In this document: positions 2,550-17,951 of the stretch, piece by piece
Layout: each line of letters opens with the position of its first letter
How positions within the stretch are numbered: the stretch's first letter is position 1
NCBI GenBank assembly: GCA_027053355.1
Contig: JALUDX010000101.1
Location: 1 to 39,395 of the forward strand
Source: Anaerolineales bacterium
Lineage (GTDB): Bacteria; Chloroflexota; Anaerolineae; Anaerolineales; DRMV01
Length of the DNA stretch: 39,395 nucleotides
Direction: 5' to 3'
Translations under genes and position numbers: made by a program
Notes under the pieces: generated by a model
What the model saw: the letters and a program-made list of their open reading frames with translations, nothing else
Databases searched by the model: none
Told to the model about the DNA's origin: nothing

Positions 2550-3224
2550 TCAAGTCTTACGACGGTCATGGAGCCAATTCTTTATTTTTGTTTTAGCCGA
2601 CTCGCAGCGCCAATAACAATAGAAAGAAGATATACCACCACCAACCAGACCTATGAGGGCAATGCCTAAAATTCTAGAAATCAACCCTGCAATCACAACA
2701 AGCGTTGCTATCGAGAGAAGAAGAAGCAACCGGTTGGAACAGGAAAGACCCTGCAGCCTCCACAATTGAGATTGTAAAACGAAAATTTCTTCAACAAGTT
2801 CTTGTGCCTCTGTTTGTTCTTCTTGGGCTTCTGGCATCAACCTCCAAAAATCACATTGTGGGGGAACGATATCCTTCGGTTTAAAATTTTTTTCTTGTGG
2901 GTCAGGGTATATCAAGCAGCCTATTGAAGAAAACCGGCACGACCATTTGGACTTTTGTTTATCAAGGCACCGCTCAATCCGCTCACGATGAGGAGTATGG
3001 TTGTCTTTTTTCAAAACGGCCCCTGAAAAGACAAAGATGGCTACAGGGAGGGCGAGAGACAATGAGCATCCGTTAGTCCTTCCAACATCCACAAGTTCGG
3101 AAGAAAAATCTCCCTCTTCCCCCATTTTTACTTCGAGCAACTTCTTGGTCTTCTTTTCCAGATTCTGATAATGCCCTTCTTCTTCTGAAGAGAAGACCCA
3201 CACCAAAGCCAAGTCTTTTGTCAT
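2550..3224 (-). CDS. Unrecognised protein with alpha/beta N-terminus and C-terminal membrane hairpin
   Basis: A 224-residue protein whose ATG overlaps the stop of the large kinase (ATGA-type overlap), with GGAGG seven bases upstream, so translational coupling is likely. Residues 1-125 alternate predicted strands (LALVWVFSS, VAIFVFSGAV, IGCLIYP) with charged helices, loosely like a TIR or other flavodoxin-like sensor fold. That resemblance is weak and I do not claim it as a call. A helical linker (about 130-160) leads to two hydrophobic segments at about 165-182 and 184-203, then a basic tail. AT-richer than its neighbours. Probably an inner-membrane protein with a cytoplasmic head that could meet the soluble kinase upstream. 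Confidence 0.6.
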   Translation of the reverse strand: MTKDLALVWVFSSEEEGHYQNLEKKTKKLLEVKMGEEGDFSSELVDVGRTNGCSLSLALPVAIFVFSGAVLKKDNHTPHRERIERCLDKQKSKWSCRFSSIGCLIYPDPQEKNFKPKDIVPPQCDFWRLMPEAQEEQTEAQELVEEIFVLQSQLWRLQGLSCSNRLLLLLSIATLVVIAGLISRILGIALIGLVGGGISSFYCYWRCESAKTKIKNWLHDRRKT

Positions 3225-7153: not shown

Positions 7154-9496
7154 TCACGACTGCGTTTTATCAGTCGGCAGTTCCGGCAGGCGGACACGGA
7201 ATAACGAACCTACGCCCATCAGGCTACGCACCACCTGAATGTCGCCGCCCATGGCTTCGACCAGTTGTTTGGCCATGAAAAGCCCTAGGCCCGAGCCGCC
7301 TGGGCGTTGGGAATAGCCAAATTCATAGATCTTGTTGGAGCGGATGAGCGCATAATGCACCCCGGGTCCTGAATCGGCCACGTAAATGCGCAAAGGCAGG
7401 TGTTTGGGCGGCACGTAGCGGGTAGAAATGGTCACCTGGCGCAACGGCTTTACGACGCCGGGGCAAAAGGGGTCCTCCCTCGACCATTGAATGGCGTTCA
7501 AAATGATGTTGTCCAGCACCTGGCGCAGCCAGGTGGGGCTGAAATGGCCGGCCGGCATGTTTTCGTCGAGGGACAATTTCAAATCAATACCCCGATTCTG
7601 CGCCAAAGGGCGAAAGCGGAGCACGCTCTGCCGAATCAGGGCATGGATGTCGGTGGCCCGGCTTTCGTGCTTGTCTTCCAAAGCACGGAACGTTTCCAAG
7701 GTGCTTTTCATCTGCCGCGCGCCGGCCAGGATGTCCCCCACCTTGGAGGCAATCTCACCCATGAAATCCTGCACCACCCGGGAGTCGGTCTGGGCCGTCA
7801 GCGCGGCCATTTGCTGGTCGAGGCTGACCAAAACGGAGTTCAAAGCATTCAACGTATTGCGCACATCGTGCAGCGCGCCGGCGCGCAAGCGGGCGTTGAG
7901 GATGTCGCTTTGCGCTTGCTCCAATACCTGGACGAGAAACGGCTGCTCTAACAACACCCCTAAAACATGGCGAGTGTATAGCCGAATGGCCGGCGACCTA
8001 TGACCCGGCCGACGGGCAAATACGAAAAAGGCCATGGGTTTCTTCGACAAAGGCGGGGTCACGCGCCAACCCCAGGCCGCTTGATAGCCCCCTTGCACGG
8101 CCTGACGGAGGTAGCGGTCATAGCGGCTGGGGCTGTCCGTAATCGCCACCATGTGCCGCTCTTCTTTCAAAATCTCCCCAACCGGACTGTACCAGAGCAG
8201 GTGCAGGCTTTCGTCATCCTGCGCGATGTCGATGCCCCATTGGGCAACCACCTCGATTTTGCCCGGCTGGTCGGGAGAGATGGCAAAGATGGCTGCGCCT
8301 TCCATGCCCACCTGCTGAGCCACGTCGGCGATGAAAGCGCGCAAATCCTGGTCGGTGTAGGCTGGCTTTTCTTTGGCCGCCACCGTGAGCGGCGCTACGG
8401 GCGCTTGCGGCGGCTTGGTTTTCCGCGGCTGCTCTGAGGACGCGCGTTCCCAGCGGCGCAAATAGTCGGCGACTTCTTCCGCAAAAAACGGTTTGTATTC
8501 CAGGGTCAGCCCTTTGGCGCGCAGCCGCGCCTCCAGGGCAGCATCGGTCTCCGCACCAGAAAGCAAAAGCACGTGGCAGTGGGGCGCAGTCCTGCAAATT
8601 TCTTCTGCCCAGGGTGTGGTGTCGCCATCCGCGCCCAAGGTCAGGTCAAGAAAAACGCCGTCGAATGCCCCTTGGCGGAATTTTCGCTTCCCTTCTTGAA
8701 GGTCTGCCGCCGTTTCCACCGCGTAGCCCCAGTCGCGCAGCAAAGCGGCCATGTGCTGGCGGAAGAGGTCGTGGTCGTCCACCACCAAAAGCCGCCGAAT
8801 GCGCTGGGGTTCGGGCGGCGTCATGGTTTCAGGGACGTCTTTCAGCAACCGCTGCAGTTTGAGCCGGTCGGCCGGTCGGAGGTGGTCTGCCAAGGGGGCT
8901 TCGCCTGCTTGCTTTGCCTTGGCTTCTTCCACAAATTCTCCCAAGCGCTCCAGATATCGCTTGATGCTTAACCGCAGCCGGTAGGCTTCAGGGTCAAATT
9001 CGGTAACCACCACCTGCACCATATCGCCCGGCCAAAGGACCTCTTGCGCTTTGACTCTGCACAGGCTGATTTCTTCTACAGGGAGAAAGCCTTCTATCCT
9101 GGGTACCACCTCCCCCGGTGCCACCTCCCCAGGTGCCACCTCCACAAAAGCGCCGAACTCTCGCACCCGTTTGACGATGCCTTCGGCCACGACGCCTTCG
9201 TGGTATTTGTCGCGGTGAATTTCCCAAGGGTTGTGGTCGACAAACCGATGGCTCAGTTCGATGGGCGCGGTTTCGTCGTCCTCCACAGAGGTGAAGCGGG
9301 GCAACACCACCGCCTCCAACTTTTGCCCCACCTGAAACTTTTGGTGCAGGTCAGGGCGCTTGTCGTCCCAACTGACCTCCCGGCGGCGGATGATCCCCCT
9401 TTCCCCATTGGGCAAGCGCACGAAAAGTTTGGAAGGGACGATTTTCTCGATGCTAACCGTGACCTTCTCCCCCGGACGATAGTTTTCTCTACTCAT
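7154..9496 (-). CDS. Histidine kinase with two N-terminal S1 RNA-binding domains, REC and GAF-like domains
   Basis: A soluble protein of 780 residues with an unusual order. Two S1-type OB-fold domains occupy about residues 5-90 and 95-190; the second has the typical GIVKRVREFGAFVEV and IEGFLPVEEIS pattern. A receiver follows (about 228-350; LVVDDHD, phospho-acceptor Asp in VFLDLTL, Lys in EYKPF). Then come a GAF-like region (about 380-520), a dimerisation helix with His in LHDVRNTLN, and an HATPase domain (N box DNIILNA, DSGPGV, GGSGLGL). The ORF track starts at a GTG at 9505, but the ATG at 9496 sits behind GGAGGTG and is preferred. It overlaps the polA stop by 8 bp. S1 domains bind RNA in ribosomal protein S1 and RNases, so RNA or ribosome sensing is inferred. 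Confidence 0.9.
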   Translation of the reverse strand: MSRENYRPGEKVTVSIEKIVPSKLFVRLPNGERGIIRRREVSWDDKRPDLHQKFQVGQKLEAVVLPRFTSVEDDETAPIELSHRFVDHNPWEIHRDKYHEGVVAEGIVKRVREFGAFVEVAPGEVAPGEVVPRIEGFLPVEEISLCRVKAQEVLWPGDMVQVVVTEFDPEAYRLRLSIKRYLERLGEFVEEAKAKQAGEAPLADHLRPADRLKLQRLLKDVPETMTPPEPQRIRRLLVVDDHDLFRQHMAALLRDWGYAVETAADLQEGKRKFRQGAFDGVFLDLTLGADGDTTPWAEEICRTAPHCHVLLLSGAETDAALEARLRAKGLTLEYKPFFAEEVADYLRRWERASSEQPRKTKPPQAPVAPLTVAAKEKPAYTDQDLRAFIADVAQQVGMEGAAIFAISPDQPGKIEVVAQWGIDIAQDDESLHLLWYSPVGEILKEERHMVAITDSPSRYDRYLRQAVQGGYQAAWGWRVTPPLSKKPMAFFVFARRPGHRSPAIRLYTRHVLGVLLEQPFLVQVLEQAQSDILNARLRAGALHDVRNTLNALNSVLVSLDQQMAALTAQTDSRVVQDFMGEIASKVGDILAGARQMKSTLETFRALEDKHESRATDIHALIRQSVLRFRPLAQNRGIDLKLSLDENMPAGHFSPTWLRQVLDNIILNAIQWSREDPFCPGVVKPLRQVTISTRYVPPKHLPLRIYVADSGPGVHYALIRSNKIYEFGYSQRPGGSGLGLFMAKQLVEAMGGDIQVVRSLMGVGSLFRVRLPELPTDKTQS
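9101..9142. repeat. 15-bp coding minisatellite inside the second S1 domain
   Basis: About three units related to CCAGGTGCCACCTCC lie in tandem inside the S1-kinase gene. On the coding strand they give EVAPGEVAPGEV, lengthening a surface loop between FGAFVEV and the IEGFLPVEEIS strand. The period is a multiple of three, so copy changes keep the frame. Boundaries are approximate. Confidence 0.75.
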
Positions 9497-12329
9497 CGTC
9501 TGCACCTCCGCGCAGTTCCCGGCTTTCCGTCCAAGGCGTCATCTCATCCCAATTCTTCCCCACCTTGGCGTCGGTGACCAGCGGCACGGCAAGGCGGTAG
9601 GCGTTTTCCATTTCGCTTTGCACCGCGCGGGCGACGTCGCTCAGCGCGTCTTCCGGCACTTCCAGCATCAGTTCGTCGTGCACCTGCAGCAGCATTTTGG
9701 CCGGCAGGCGGTCGGCTGCCAGGCGCTCAGCCACCCGCAGCATGGCCAGTTTCATGATGTCCGCCGCGGTGCCTTGAATAGGCGCGTTGATGGCTTCCCG
9801 CTCGGCGCGCAGGCGGGCGTTGCGGTTGGCGGGCTTCTGCAGTTCGGGGAAGTAGCGCCGCCGCCCCAGCAGGGTTTCCACATAGCCCTGCGCCGCGGCT
9901 TTGCGGCGGGTTGCCTCGATGTAGCGCTTCACGCCGGGGAAGCGCTTGAAGTAGGCTTCCACGAAGTTTTCGGCTTCGGCCAAAGTCAGGTCGGTGGTGC
10001 GGGTGAGGCCGAAGGGGCTCATGCCGTAAATCAGGCCGAAGTTGATGGCCTTGGCATGGCGGCGCATCTGCGGGGTGACTTCTTCCAGCGGCACGCCGTA
10101 AATGGCCGCTGCGGTCGCGGCGTGGATGTCTTGCCCGGCCCGGAAGGCGGCAATCATGGCCTCGTCGCCGGAAACATGCGCCACGATGCGCAGTTCCACC
10201 TGGGAATAGTCCACCGAGAGCAGCAGGTGGCCTTCGGGCGCGACGAAAGCCCGCCGCACCCGCCGCCCCACCGGCGTGCGCACAGGGATGTTCTGCAGGT
10301 TCGGGTCCGAAGACGCAATCCGCCCGGTGACCGTGCCGGTCTGGTTGTAGGAAGTGTGCACCCGCCCGGTTGCGGGGTTCACCTGCTGGGGCAGGGCGTC
10401 CACGTAGGTGGATTTGAGTTTCGCCAGTTCGCGGTGCTCTAACACCCAATCCACCACCTCGTGCTGGCCGCGCAGGGCTTCCAGCACGCTGGCTGAGGTG
10501 GAATAGTGCCCACTCTTGGTCTTGCGGGTGCGGTCGGGCGGCTGCAGCCCCAAAGTCTCGAACAAAATTTTGGAAAGTTGCCGGGTGGAGTTGATGTTGA
10601 AACGCTGCCCCACCGCGGCGTAAATTTGCTCTTCCAAGGCGCGCAACTGAGCGGCCAGTTCCTGCGACATGCGGGCGAGGAAGTCGGTGTCCACCAGGAT
10701 GCCGTTCATTTCCATGCGCGCCAGCACGGGCACCAAGGGCATTTCGATTTCCCGGAACAGCCGCCAGCCGTTGCGCTCGCGCACGTCGGCTTCCAGCAGA
10801 GGCATCAGGCGCAGGGTCATCACCGCATCGGCCGCGGCGTAGGGCGCGGCCTTGGCCACCGGCACCTCGGCCATGCTGATTTGCTTCTTGCCTTTGCCGA
10901 TGAGGGCGGTAATGTCGGTCATTTCCACGCCGAGGCGCGTCCAGGCTAAGTTCTTCAGCCCCAAATTGTGGGAAGCCGGGTCACGCACCCACTCGGCAAT
11001 CATGGTATCGAAGGCGGGCGTGCTCATGGGCAGGCCGTGGCGGGCCAGCACCACCAGGTCGTATTTGATGTTGTGCCCCACCTTGGCCACCTGCGGGTCG
11101 GCTAAGAAGGGCGCGAGCGCGGCGCGGACGTGTTCCCACGGCAGTTGCGCCTCGCCGGTGCGGTGCCCCACGGGGATGTAAAAGCCCTCGCCCTCGTCCA
11201 CCGCGAGGGAAACGCCCACCAGGTCGGCGCGCATTTTGTCGGTGGCGGTGGTTTCGGTGTCGATGGCTACGGTGCGGGCGACCTTCAGGCGGCGGGTAAG
11301 GGCCTGCAATGCTTCCGGGGAATCCACCACGGTGGTGCGGAAGCCTAAATCGGGCGGGGGGGAAGCCGCGCCTGCCGTGCCCGCGGCGGCCTGCCCGCCG
11401 AACAGGGCAAGTTGCTGGGGTTCGTCCCCTTCCCCGCCCGCGGCCTGCTGCCATGCCCGCAGGCGCTTGAGCAGGGAGCGGAACTCCAGTTCCCGGAACA
11501 GGGCTTCCACCGCACCCACGGCGTCGGGGCGGGGCACGGCCTGGGCAAGGTCCACGGCCACCTCCAGGTCGGTGCGGATGCGGGCCAGGTCCCGGCTCAG
11601 GTAGGCGTTGTGGCGGTCGGCTTCCAGTTTGCGGCGGATGCCGGGGGCGAGTTCGTCCAAATGGGCGTAAATGCCGTCCAAAGTGTCGTATTTTTGCAGC
11701 AGTTTGGCCGCGGTTTTCTCGCCAATGCCCCGCACGCCAGGGATGTTGTCGGATTTGTCGCCCACCAGCGCCTTGAAATCCACAATCTGGTCGGGCCGCA
11801 CGCCGTATTTGGCTTTCACCTTTTCGGGGGTGTAGTCGGTGGTATCCGAAAGTTGCCGCCCGGGCAGGGAAACGATGATCCGCTCGTCCACCAGTTGCAG
11901 CAGGTCCCGGTCGCCGGTGACGATTTTCACCCCCATGCCCTCACTTTGAGCCAGGCGTTTGGCCGCGCTGCCCAGCACGTCGTCGGCTTCGTAGCCCTCC
12001 CTTTCCAGCCGCGGGAAGCCGAACGCGTCCACCAGTTGGCGGATGCGCGCCATCTGGGGCACCAAATCCTCGGGCATTTTGGCGCGGGTAGCCTTGTATT
12101 CGGGGTAGATCTCGTCGCGGAAGGTGCGCCCGACGTCGAAAGCCACGGCCAGGTAATCGGGGTGCTCCTGTTCCAAAAGCCGTAGCAAAATGCTGGCAAA
12201 GCCATAAGCGGCCGCGGTAGGCTCCCCCTGGCTGTTGCGCCAGCGGTCGCCGCCGGTGCCCGCGGTGAGGGCAAAATAGGCGCGGTAGGCCAACGCGTGG
12301 CCGTCGAGCAAGTAGATGGTGGGGGGCAT
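9489..12329 (-). CDS. polA: DNA polymerase I with active-looking 5'-3' and 3'-5' exonuclease domains
   Basis: A 946-residue family A DNA polymerase for repair and Okazaki fragment processing. The 5'-3' exonuclease/flap domain covers about 1-290. The 3'-5' exonuclease domain (about 330-510) keeps its acidic residues: DTETT, the Asp in HNIKYD and the YAAAD motif, so proofreading looks intact, unlike Taq-type enzymes. The polymerase domain shows motif A (DYSQVELRI), the finger motif (RHAKAINFGLIYG) and motif C (QVHDEL). Length is usual. The ATG has GAGGAA upstream. It follows the Roadblock/transposase-like gene by 24 bp, a spacer carrying one copy of the GGCTGAACnGTTACC repeat, and overlaps the S1-kinase gene by 8 bp, so it sits mid-operon. 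Confidence 0.98.
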   Translation of the reverse strand: MPPTIYLLDGHALAYRAYFALTAGTGGDRWRNSQGEPTAAAYGFASILLRLLEQEHPDYLAVAFDVGRTFRDEIYPEYKATRAKMPEDLVPQMARIRQLVDAFGFPRLEREGYEADDVLGSAAKRLAQSEGMGVKIVTGDRDLLQLVDERIIVSLPGRQLSDTTDYTPEKVKAKYGVRPDQIVDFKALVGDKSDNIPGVRGIGEKTAAKLLQKYDTLDGIYAHLDELAPGIRRKLEADRHNAYLSRDLARIRTDLEVAVDLAQAVPRPDAVGAVEALFRELEFRSLLKRLRAWQQAAGGEGDEPQQLALFGGQAAAGTAGAASPPPDLGFRTTVVDSPEALQALTRRLKVARTVAIDTETTATDKMRADLVGVSLAVDEGEGFYIPVGHRTGEAQLPWEHVRAALAPFLADPQVAKVGHNIKYDLVVLARHGLPMSTPAFDTMIAEWVRDPASHNLGLKNLAWTRLGVEMTDITALIGKGKKQISMAEVPVAKAAPYAAADAVMTLRLMPLLEADVRERNGWRLFREIEMPLVPVLARMEMNGILVDTDFLARMSQELAAQLRALEEQIYAAVGQRFNINSTRQLSKILFETLGLQPPDRTRKTKSGHYSTSASVLEALRGQHEVVDWVLEHRELAKLKSTYVDALPQQVNPATGRVHTSYNQTGTVTGRIASSDPNLQNIPVRTPVGRRVRRAFVAPEGHLLLSVDYSQVELRIVAHVSGDEAMIAAFRAGQDIHAATAAAIYGVPLEEVTPQMRRHAKAINFGLIYGMSPFGLTRTTDLTLAEAENFVEAYFKRFPGVKRYIEATRRKAAAQGYVETLLGRRRYFPELQKPANRNARLRAEREAINAPIQGTAADIMKLAMLRVAERLAADRLPAKMLLQVHDELMLEVPEDALSDVARAVQSEMENAYRLAVPLVTDAKVGKNWDEMTPWTESRELRGGADDE

Positions 12330-12353: not shown

Positions 12354-13286
12354 TCAGCCTTGGGAAAATCGGCCGCGAAGGTGCTTCTGCAGAAAAGCGG
12401 CAATGGCACGGGAAGAAATGGGCACCTGCCGCGGCTGCAGCAAGTAAAACGGGGCCCAAAAATCATCGGCCGGGTGAGCAAAAGGCAGTTCGGGGTGGGC
12501 CTGATAGAGCAAACGGGAAGTATGCCAGCGCACCGCGCGCACCACCGCGGTGGGCGGGGTGTTGGGCGGCACCTCCACCACCCACTGCAGATAGTGAGGC
12601 TGCACGCTGAAATGAAGCAGCCGCCAGCCAAAGCCGTGGATCAGCCGGGGCAACCAGCGGCTGAGGTCGCGCGCCAGATCGCCCACCAAAAACTGATTGG
12701 GGTGCTTGGGCACCAGCACGCCCGCGTAGGCCTGCGTCTGGGGCGAAGGCGGCATAGCCTCTGCCGGCGCGGGGGCCTGCTGAGGCCGCACCACCGCGGC
12801 CTGCGCCTCAGCAGGGGGCGGCGGGGCCGGCCGAGGCGGCGCCGCGGGCACAGTGGGGTTGGGGTCGGGGATGTCGTCGAACAGCGGTTGAAAGGCCTCA
12901 GGCGGCAGGTCGTCGTCTTCCTCTGCTGCGGCGTCGGTGGGGGTGGTCAGCGCAGCAGCCAAATTGTGCAGCAATCGGCGCGCCTGGCTCAGCGGGTGGG
13001 ACGCGTCGAACACGGCCACTAACCACTTCTCGCCCTCCAGCCGCGTCGCCAAAAGCATCAGCGGCGCTTTGGCCAACGGCGAGCGCACATAACGCAGGAT
13101 GTCGCTTTCCCCCTGCAGGGGCACCTCGGGCAACAGCGCGGCCAACGCCTCTTCAGACCACACGCCGTGGTAGGCCGAAAGCTGCCCCGCAGCGGCCACC
13201 ATCACGGCGCGCGCGCCTTCCACCGGCCCCAGGCGCGCCAATGCCTGGGCCAGGGAAGGAAACGACGCCCCCGAAGCCTCTTTCAT
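12354..13286 (-). CDS. Roadblock-like domain fused to an inactivated IS200-type (HUH/Y1) transposase domain
   Basis: The ORF track starts at 13406, but the ATG at 13286 overlaps the stop of the 60-residue gene (ATGA) and gives a 310-residue protein; I prefer it. Residues 1-115 resemble a Roadblock/LC7 fold. A Pro/Ala-rich linker follows (about 130-185). The C-terminal third reads like an IS200 TnpA domain: VLVPKHPNQFLVGDLAR, GWRLLHFSVQPHYLQWVVEVPP, then DFWAPFYLLQP. The HUH metal motif (normally HVH) is HYL here and the catalytic Tyr helix carries Phe (AFLQKHL), so nicking activity should be lost. The domain seems domesticated for another use, perhaps DNA or RNA hairpin binding. The Roadblock call is weaker than the transposase call. 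The stop codon lies in a dispersed repeat. Confidence 0.75.
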   Translation of the reverse strand: MKEASGASFPSLAQALARLGPVEGARAVMVAAAGQLSAYHGVWSEEALAALLPEVPLQGESDILRYVRSPLAKAPLMLLATRLEGEKWLVAVFDASHPLSQARRLLHNLAAALTTPTDAAAEEDDDLPPEAFQPLFDDIPDPNPTVPAAPPRPAPPPPAEAQAAVVRPQQAPAPAEAMPPSPQTQAYAGVLVPKHPNQFLVGDLARDLSRWLPRLIHGFGWRLLHFSVQPHYLQWVVEVPPNTPPTAVVRAVRWHTSRLLYQAHPELPFAHPADDFWAPFYLLQPRQVPISSRAIAAFLQKHLRGRFSQG

Positions 13287-13465
13287 TGCTGCAGCGCGCG
13301 CATCAGTTCTTGAAACTCTTTCCATTCCTCGGCAAAAAAGTGCACGGTCAGAGCGCCCAATTCCAGATGGTAGGTAATTTCGCCATCGGGCTCTTCGGCC
13401 TGCCACACCAGGTAGTTGCGGGTCTCGGCCAAAATTTCGGTTTTGGGTTCTGCAAAGTCGCTCAT
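13283..13465 (-). CDS. Small conserved-looking protein of 60 residues
   Basis: An acidic soluble protein (MSDFAEPKTEILAETRNYLV...) with predicted strands and a C-terminal helix rich in Glu and aromatic residues. I do not recognise a family. The ATG is preceded by TTGAGGAG, a good ribosome site. Its stop overlaps the start of the Roadblock/transposase-like gene, so the two are probably co-translated and may interact. It lies 24 bp after the AI-2E family gene. Confidence 0.7.
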   Translation of the reverse strand: MSDFAEPKTEILAETRNYLVWQAEEPDGEITYHLELGALTVHFFAEEWKEFQELMRALQQ

Positions 13466-14749: not shown

Positions 14750-15108
14750 GTAACGATTCAGTCACAAGGGAATAGACCACGGAGGGCACGGATAGTCACA
14801 GAGACGCACGGATTTTCAGGTCGCCAAGGATGAACGCAAAGGCGCAGAGGAAGCAGAGGCGCAGAGAGCGCAAAGAAAAAATTTCTGTGTCTTCTGTGTT
14901 TTTCACCCAATCGGTGTAAATCTGTGTCAATCGGTGGATGGTAACGCCAATCATACCAGAGCGCCAAGGTCGCCAAGAAAGGCAATGCCACCCCAATCCC
15001 TCAGTGCTCCAACCCTACCGCCTTCTGTGTTCTCGGTGCCTTCTCTGTGTCTTCTGTGGTTTTCTGCCTGCGTCATCCGTAGCGTCTCTTTGAGGCTGAA
15101 CAGTTACC
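14750..15108. repeat. Dispersed intergenic element A with inverted ends
   Basis: This gap of about 380 bp between two minus-strand genes has no credible gene. It begins GTAACGATTCAGTC and ends GGCTGAACAGTTACC, which are imperfect inverted ends. The interior is purine-biased repeats such as CCACAGAAGACACAGAGAA and GGTCGCCAAGG. Bases 14998-15107, reverse-complemented, match 17726-17835 with 6 mismatches in 110 by my hand alignment. The right end overlaps the last codons of the kinase gene and supplies its TAA stop. Confidence 0.85.
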
Positions 15109-17544: not shown

Positions 17545-17570
17545 GTCGCCTCCTCACAAGGGGAAAGGTT

Positions 17571-17666
17571 GGTTACTTGGTTACTTGGTTACTTGGTTAC
17601 TTGGTTACTTGGTTACTTGGTTACTTGGTTGCTTGGTTGCTTGGTTACTTGGTTACTTGGTTAGTT
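17571..17666. repeat. Array of about twelve 8-bp repeats (GGTTACTT) upstream of ridA
   Basis: Twelve consecutive octamers, mostly GGTTACTT with GGTTGCTT and GGTTAGTT variants toward the right end, start 27 bp upstream of the ridA start codon. There are no spacers, so this is not CRISPR. The period is not a multiple of three and the array is non-coding for ridA; plus-strand ORFs across it (YLVTWLLG repeats) are artefacts. Diverged octamers of the same kind occur at about 28182 and 33836-33880. Confidence 0.95.
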
Positions 17667-17725: not shown

Positions 17726-17951
17726 GTAACTATTCAGCCTCAAAGAGAGGCTACGGATGACGCAGGCAGAAAACCACAGAAGACACAGAGAAGACACCGA
17801 AAACACAGAAGGCGGCAGGGTTGGAGCACTGAAGGATGGGGGCAAATGGCGATCGACTACTCAGATGCTCCTCCTGGCGCTCTCGGCGCCCAAAAATCCG
17901 CTATCATCCGCGTTCATCCGTGGGCTATTTTCCAGAGGCTGAACAGTTACC
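17726..17951. repeat. Dispersed intergenic element B with inverted ends
   Basis: Bounded by GTAACTATTCAGCC on the left and GGCTGAACAGTTACC on the right. Its first 110 bp are an inverted near-copy of 14998-15107. The right half has AAAATCCGC...TCATCCGTGGG, also seen in element C near 28300. No coding potential is believable. Confidence 0.88.

Follow-up and report, generated by a model that had tools for sequence, protein, structure and literature searches.

The window, by which we mean the whole 39,395-nt stretch of DNA analyzed here, carries on its minus strand an ORF (12354..13286, read from 13286 to 12354) for a protein of 310 amino acid residues. The ORF listing, a match to Pfam Y1_Tnp and an AlphaFold model characterize the product as a Roadblock domain joined to an inactive, TnpA-like Y1 domain. 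Immediately upstream, on the same strand, lies a gene for a 60-residue protein (13283..13465), the stop codon of which overlaps the ATG of the Roadblock-Y1 gene in an ATGA arrangement (CAATGA at the junction). Downstream, polA, encoding a DNA polymerase I of 946 residues (9489..12329, minus strand), begins after 24 nt. An intact frame, a start/stop overlap with a small gene and a position before polA had all been reported in the preliminary description, and each was borne out: the 310-residue ORF contains zero internal stops, the overlap is as given above, and the placement of polA is kept among the homologues. Beyond polA (7154-9505) is found an unusual protein possessing two S1 RNA-binding domains, a receiver and a histidine-kinase ATPase domain.

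The 60-residue protein has homologues that are 46-83% identical, several of them encoded directly upstream of the same Roadblock-Y1 gene, and it is present as a single copy in 101 of the 121 genomes of the order. A confident model predicts four strands and one helix (bbbba); a search for a database relative or a confident structural relative of this protein returned none. As a fixed partner of the Roadblock-Y1 gene it was rejected: common as it is in the order, it accompanies that gene in several families but lies elsewhere in several others.

The C-terminal part of the 310-residue protein (residues 178-310; 12357..12755, minus strand) is a Y1 transposase domain of the HUH fold. Pfam Y1_Tnp (PF01797) covers residues 187-284 with 35.1 bits (E 1.7e-8; curated cut-off 23 bits), and the NCBIfam IS200 model scores 35.6 bits, under its equivalog cut-off of 55; no other Y1 match occurs in the 2.45-Mb genome. 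Compared with PDB sequences, the C-terminal part alone retrieves IS200 TnpA structures at 4.9e-5, and a family profile built from 53 homologues matches IS200/IS605 transposases exclusively, to E 4.8e-24. The AlphaFold model, based on an alignment of 130 sequences, has a mean pLDDT of 83, with Roadblock and Y1 mostly above 90 and a disordered linker; with this model Foldseek returns TnpA 2ec2 (E 6e-9, TMt 0.75). The rmsd to the TnpA structures is large (3-14 Å) despite the good TM-score. In TnpA the last helix is placed in trans, which may explain this. Pfam, the PDB profile and AlphaFold/Foldseek agree on the Y1 HUH fold, so that the IS200-type transposase domain proposed from the letters alone stands, and the structural comparison with TnpA that had been suggested as a check finds the fold in the model.

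The catalytic residues are a different matter. The PDHxH motif of TnpA (PDHIH in the PDB alignment) pairs with P-H-Y-L-Q-W in the window protein, where Tyr232 and Gln234 replace both histidines of a degenerate HUH motif (Tyr232-Leu233-Gln234; 12585..12593, minus strand). The second His had been described as lost, which is correct; the first has also gone, and the His that had been taken for it occupies the Asp position. The substitution of Phe for the catalytic Tyr was read correctly, the alignments placing Phe298 (12393..12395, minus strand) at that position. These changes are shared by the family, as conservation among homologues had been proposed to reveal. None of the 132 long homologues retains HUH together with Tyr, and HUQ together with Tyr is likewise absent from all 132. 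The HUH columns mostly read Y-x-Q, with the first His lost in 124 proteins and the second replaced by Gln in 105; His is kept in the first column by eight, in the second by six and in both by one (L015, which has HLH with Phe for Tyr). The catalytic position is Tyr in 69 proteins and Phe in 58, and the alignment of the closer clade shows that the Gln of the Y---Q motif has been lost there. By comparison, HxH is kept in 33 of the 34 IS200 rows from the same phylum in the tree set. Tyr187, Trp277 and Tyr281, residues of the fold core, are common to the family and IS200, while Trp221, Arg222, Trp235, Arg303 and a C-terminal Gln-Gly are conserved specifically in the family; Arg303, new on the old catalytic helix, is 97%/86% conserved. 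A single conserved ligand across the class is doubtful, since distant lineages are variable at the HUH and Tyr positions.

The N-terminal part is recognized through its family. A family Roadblock profile scores 97 bits on residues 12-117 (12936..13253, minus strand) of the window protein; searched against the PDB, the Roadblock profile finds MglB at 1.1e-6 and LAMTOR4 far more weakly, and Foldseek assigns the domain to MglB/LAMTOR with probability 1.0. Single sequences lie near or below the Pfam cut-off for Roadblock/LC7. The Roadblock-like N-terminus of the preliminary description is thus upheld by profile and fold. The domain occurs in 130 of the 132 long homologues, and 117 of them have a receiver-like N-terminus, the profile of which matches response regulators in the PDB at 4.7e-21. 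Within this domain the phospho-Asp is present in 26 of 31 homologues and the Lys in 21 of 31, and the acidic-pair position is mostly non-acidic. The window protein has no receiver, nor do a small number of others (L027/L028, one Anaerolineales group). In the window the gene has no room for one, because the 60-residue gene overlaps its start codon. The receiver has been lost several times, and the window copy is a shortened form. The linker is acidic in the family (mean charge -10) and carries a conserved motif, LFDDIPDPNP in the window protein (residues 135-144; 12855..12884, minus strand); the pattern [LI][LFIV]x[DEN][VI]PxPxP is found in 83 of 130 homologues, as against 0.025 in shuffled linkers. 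In distant families (L078, L088-L094) the protein reaches 900-1250 residues, receiver and Roadblock being separated there by a very long stretch that is acidic and disordered.

Homologues of the window protein were found in 36 of 61 close relatives and, within the order, about 66 of 121 genomes have a member when open frames of at least 280 residues are counted. Across the class Anaerolineae 201 of 397 genomes gave matches, some of which are ordinary short IS200 transposases. About 130 distinct Anaerolineae homologues share the Roadblock-Y1 design, most of them adding the receiver-like domain, and the named family matches are Anaerolineales, Anaerolineae or Chloroflexi MAGs. With no member detected in about half of the Anaerolineae genomes searched, the protein would not be essential everywhere. 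Elsewhere in the phylum, the inspected matches were short HUH-bearing transposases; three longer open frames from outside the class were rejected as members, being ordinary HVH transposases without Roadblock. The full-length form was not found in the plasmid, phage and viral sets; since a consensus-like TnpA control query matched nothing in plasmids, homologous IS200 loci served as the comparison instead. As the sole Y1 copy in its genome, fixed beside polA and without mobile carriers, the gene lacks IS200-type mobility.

An unrooted tree of 94 Y1 domains separates IS200 transposases from all family members and short paralogues by a branch with 100/100 support, which the long protein L076 adjoins. 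On this tree two changes account for the HUH pattern, one of which falls in a decayed IS200 copy, and five for Tyr/Phe, from which it follows that HUH was probably lost once and that Tyr and Phe toggled afterwards. The short paralogues, which branch within the polA-linked family, are dead-Y1 proteins of 144-194 residues without Roadblock (L082:2618-3199, L083:2326-2847, L084:2256-2837, L085:1552-1983 and 2734-3177, L087:2068-2583). Their genes are closely followed by those for an Mrr-type restriction endonuclease (PADLOC candidate PDC-S02) and a TPR protein, with which they possibly form a defence locus that has a dead-transposase subunit. The polA-linked gene itself was rejected as a defence component, there being no PADLOC match.

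Downstream sequence sufficed for judging the neighbor at 122 loci. In 102 of these the Roadblock-Y1 gene is followed directly by polA in the same orientation, at a distance of at most 700 nt (median 91 nt); in five more polA lies within 6 kb, and the remaining 15 have none nearby. The link also holds in distant families whose proteins are 655-1004 residues long, while the upstream genes vary by family (AI-2E-type permease, lipoprotein and others). The loci are related, so that the 102 are not independent events, but with the link spanning the class a chance association is untenable. Pairwise distances of Y1 and of the neighboring PolA correlate with r 0.88 over 58 loci, with none of 999 permutations as high; this is a prediction of vertical inheritance and alone no evidence of contact. 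Values of dN/dS were obtained from closely related pairs, the more divergent of which include one from the genus of the window itself: for Y1 they are 0.00-0.06 within one family and 0.09-0.23 in the more divergent pairs, and the values of the two domains, Y1 and Roadblock, together span 0.00-0.09 and 0.04-0.23, respectively. The exaptation suggested earlier is accordingly well founded: the gene is class-wide, falls on a single branch, is under purifying selection in conserved synteny, and has lost catalysis and gained a fused Roadblock.

The role then proposed, that of a hairpin-binding protein in a genome rich in small palindromic repeats, fared less well. The 39-kb window contains four perfect hairpins with stems of at least 9, compared with 2.05 ± 1.7 in shuffles, and none of these was found near the Roadblock-Y1 gene; the claimed richness is not seen. 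A dispersed intergenic repeat occurs at 14991-15107 and 17726-17842, with partial copies at 80-105, and at least 40 copies (328 candidates at first look) were scored in the 2.45-Mb genome; it folds no better than shuffles. Local palindromes were consequently rejected as targets. A separate 8-nt tandem repeat, TTGGTTAC, runs for about a dozen units at 17561-17664. The charge of the domain has also shifted. The net charge of Y1 averages +7.1 in 29 IS200 proteins and -0.2 in family representatives (Mann-Whitney p 9e-12, the rows being related), divided into +2.6 in the closer and -4.6 in the distant clade. The Arg196 that is invariant in IS200 is lost in the family, together with the basic Lys/Arg of positions 197, 198 and 279. 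With no palindrome excess, non-folding repeats, basic residues lost and a lower net charge, the hairpin-binding role is not supported, although the window copy, at +7, may still have it.

What the protein does can be considered against several readings. That it is a transposase pseudogene in decay, which came to lie beside polA fortuitously, is scarcely credible. The window copy is indeed shorter and more diverged than its relatives, but the ORFs are intact throughout and domains have been added, and the reading is contradicted by dN/dS well below 1 together with the fixed polA synteny. An enzyme with altered metal ligands, in Tyr or Phe variants, is very improbable. HUQ enzymes are known, and the frequent Gln at the second His position and the Tyr kept by 69 of the 132 proteins recall them; in no member, however, does Tyr accompany a motif that could supply two ligands (HUH or HUQ), the first His has nearly always gone, and the closer clade has lost the Gln of Y---Q. 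A pure protein scaffold, in which Y1 merely dimerises, Roadblock pairs with a Ras-like GTPase and the position beside polA is historical, is unlikely, if not to be dismissed so readily. The Roadblock match is MglB, the partner of MglA (PMC4316618), the genome codes for an MglA-like GTPase at another locus, and distant members have lost charge. The Roadblock-Y1 locus, however, has no adjoining GTPase gene, polA linkage is maintained across the class, and the pocket residues of the closer clade are conserved rather than drifting.

A binder of single-stranded DNA or hairpins, in which the dead Y1 retains the hairpin recognition of TnpA and acts on the lagging strand or in repair beside Pol I, strikes us as a tentative candidate, a little stronger than the scaffold. 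The TnpA fold is kept, the Pol I gene is adjacent and the window copy has an IS200-like charge; moreover, the closer clade keeps basic residues at 194, 250 and 253 (84-100%), and Arg222, Arg229, Arg266 and Arg303 have been gained. Against these stand the loss of Arg196 and its basic companions, the lower net charge of both clades and the want of a palindrome excess or of folding repeats. An extension, that of a class-wide Pol I accessory factor whose remodelled pocket senses single-stranded DNA or hairpins and signals via Roadblock and receiver, is a speculative proposal to which we give little weight.

The observed domains, lost catalysis, conservation and synteny of the family are best read as those of a pseudo-transposase that arose long ago, has been passed on vertically and acts as an adaptor, co-expressed with Pol I, in which two dimer-forming domains are combined with a conserved linker motif. 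We lean, by a modest degree, toward a fuller explanation in which an ancestor of the Anaerolineae captured, a single time, a TnpA domain of the IS200/IS605 type; this domain then forfeited both metal ligands and nucleophile and was joined to receiver-like and Roadblock domains beside polA, with vertical inheritance since. The protein would now be a non-catalytic and probably dimeric adaptor, because the Roadblock and Y1 folds both dimerise in known relatives. We infer that the motif in the acidic disordered linker serves as a docking site, and that the remodelled pocket, consisting of Y-L-Q-W and the near-invariant Arg on the old catalytic helix, may bind a ligand instead of cutting. Presumably made together with Pol I, the adaptor would most likely recruit or regulate a partner in Pol I-related DNA repair or replication; the polA link could also be an inherited gene order without functional contact.

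The family shares its fold with IS200/IS605 TnpA, to which homology is clear (PDB 2ec2, 2f4f, 2fyx, 2xm3). In contrast to these transposases its members are long, multidomain and without catalytic residues, and each is one vertically inherited copy beside polA rather than a mobile element; neither tnpB nor terminal hairpins, as in IS200/IS605, were seen. Another parallel is TnpAREP/RAYT, likewise a domesticated host gene derived from a Y1 transposase, with housekeeping-like behaviour (PMC8266576) and a conserved HuH/Y core that defines the group (PMC6006769). Those proteins retain HuH and Tyr and are accompanied by REP palindromes, whereas the Roadblock-Y1 family has lost catalysis and possesses fused Roadblock and receiver domains; in the window, flanking REP palindromes are absent near the gene and not in excess. 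With MglB the family has the Roadblock fold in common, but here it is fused to receiver and Y1, and no MglA gene is adjacent. Neither a fusion of Roadblock to Y1 nor a dead TnpA linked to polA was found described in the open-access literature, where absence is weak evidence.

We regard the protein as a domesticated transposase turned pseudo-enzyme. Whereas the known domesticated Y1 proteins (TnpAREP/RAYT) keep their chemistry, the Roadblock-Y1 family is a clear bacterial example of the opposite path, in which the chemistry has been discarded, the fold is strongly selected, signalling-type domains have been added and polA is the neighbor class-wide. It offers a defined case for asking what the HUH fold is worth without catalysis, and it hints at a new Pol I-linked factor in a large and little-studied group of bacteria.
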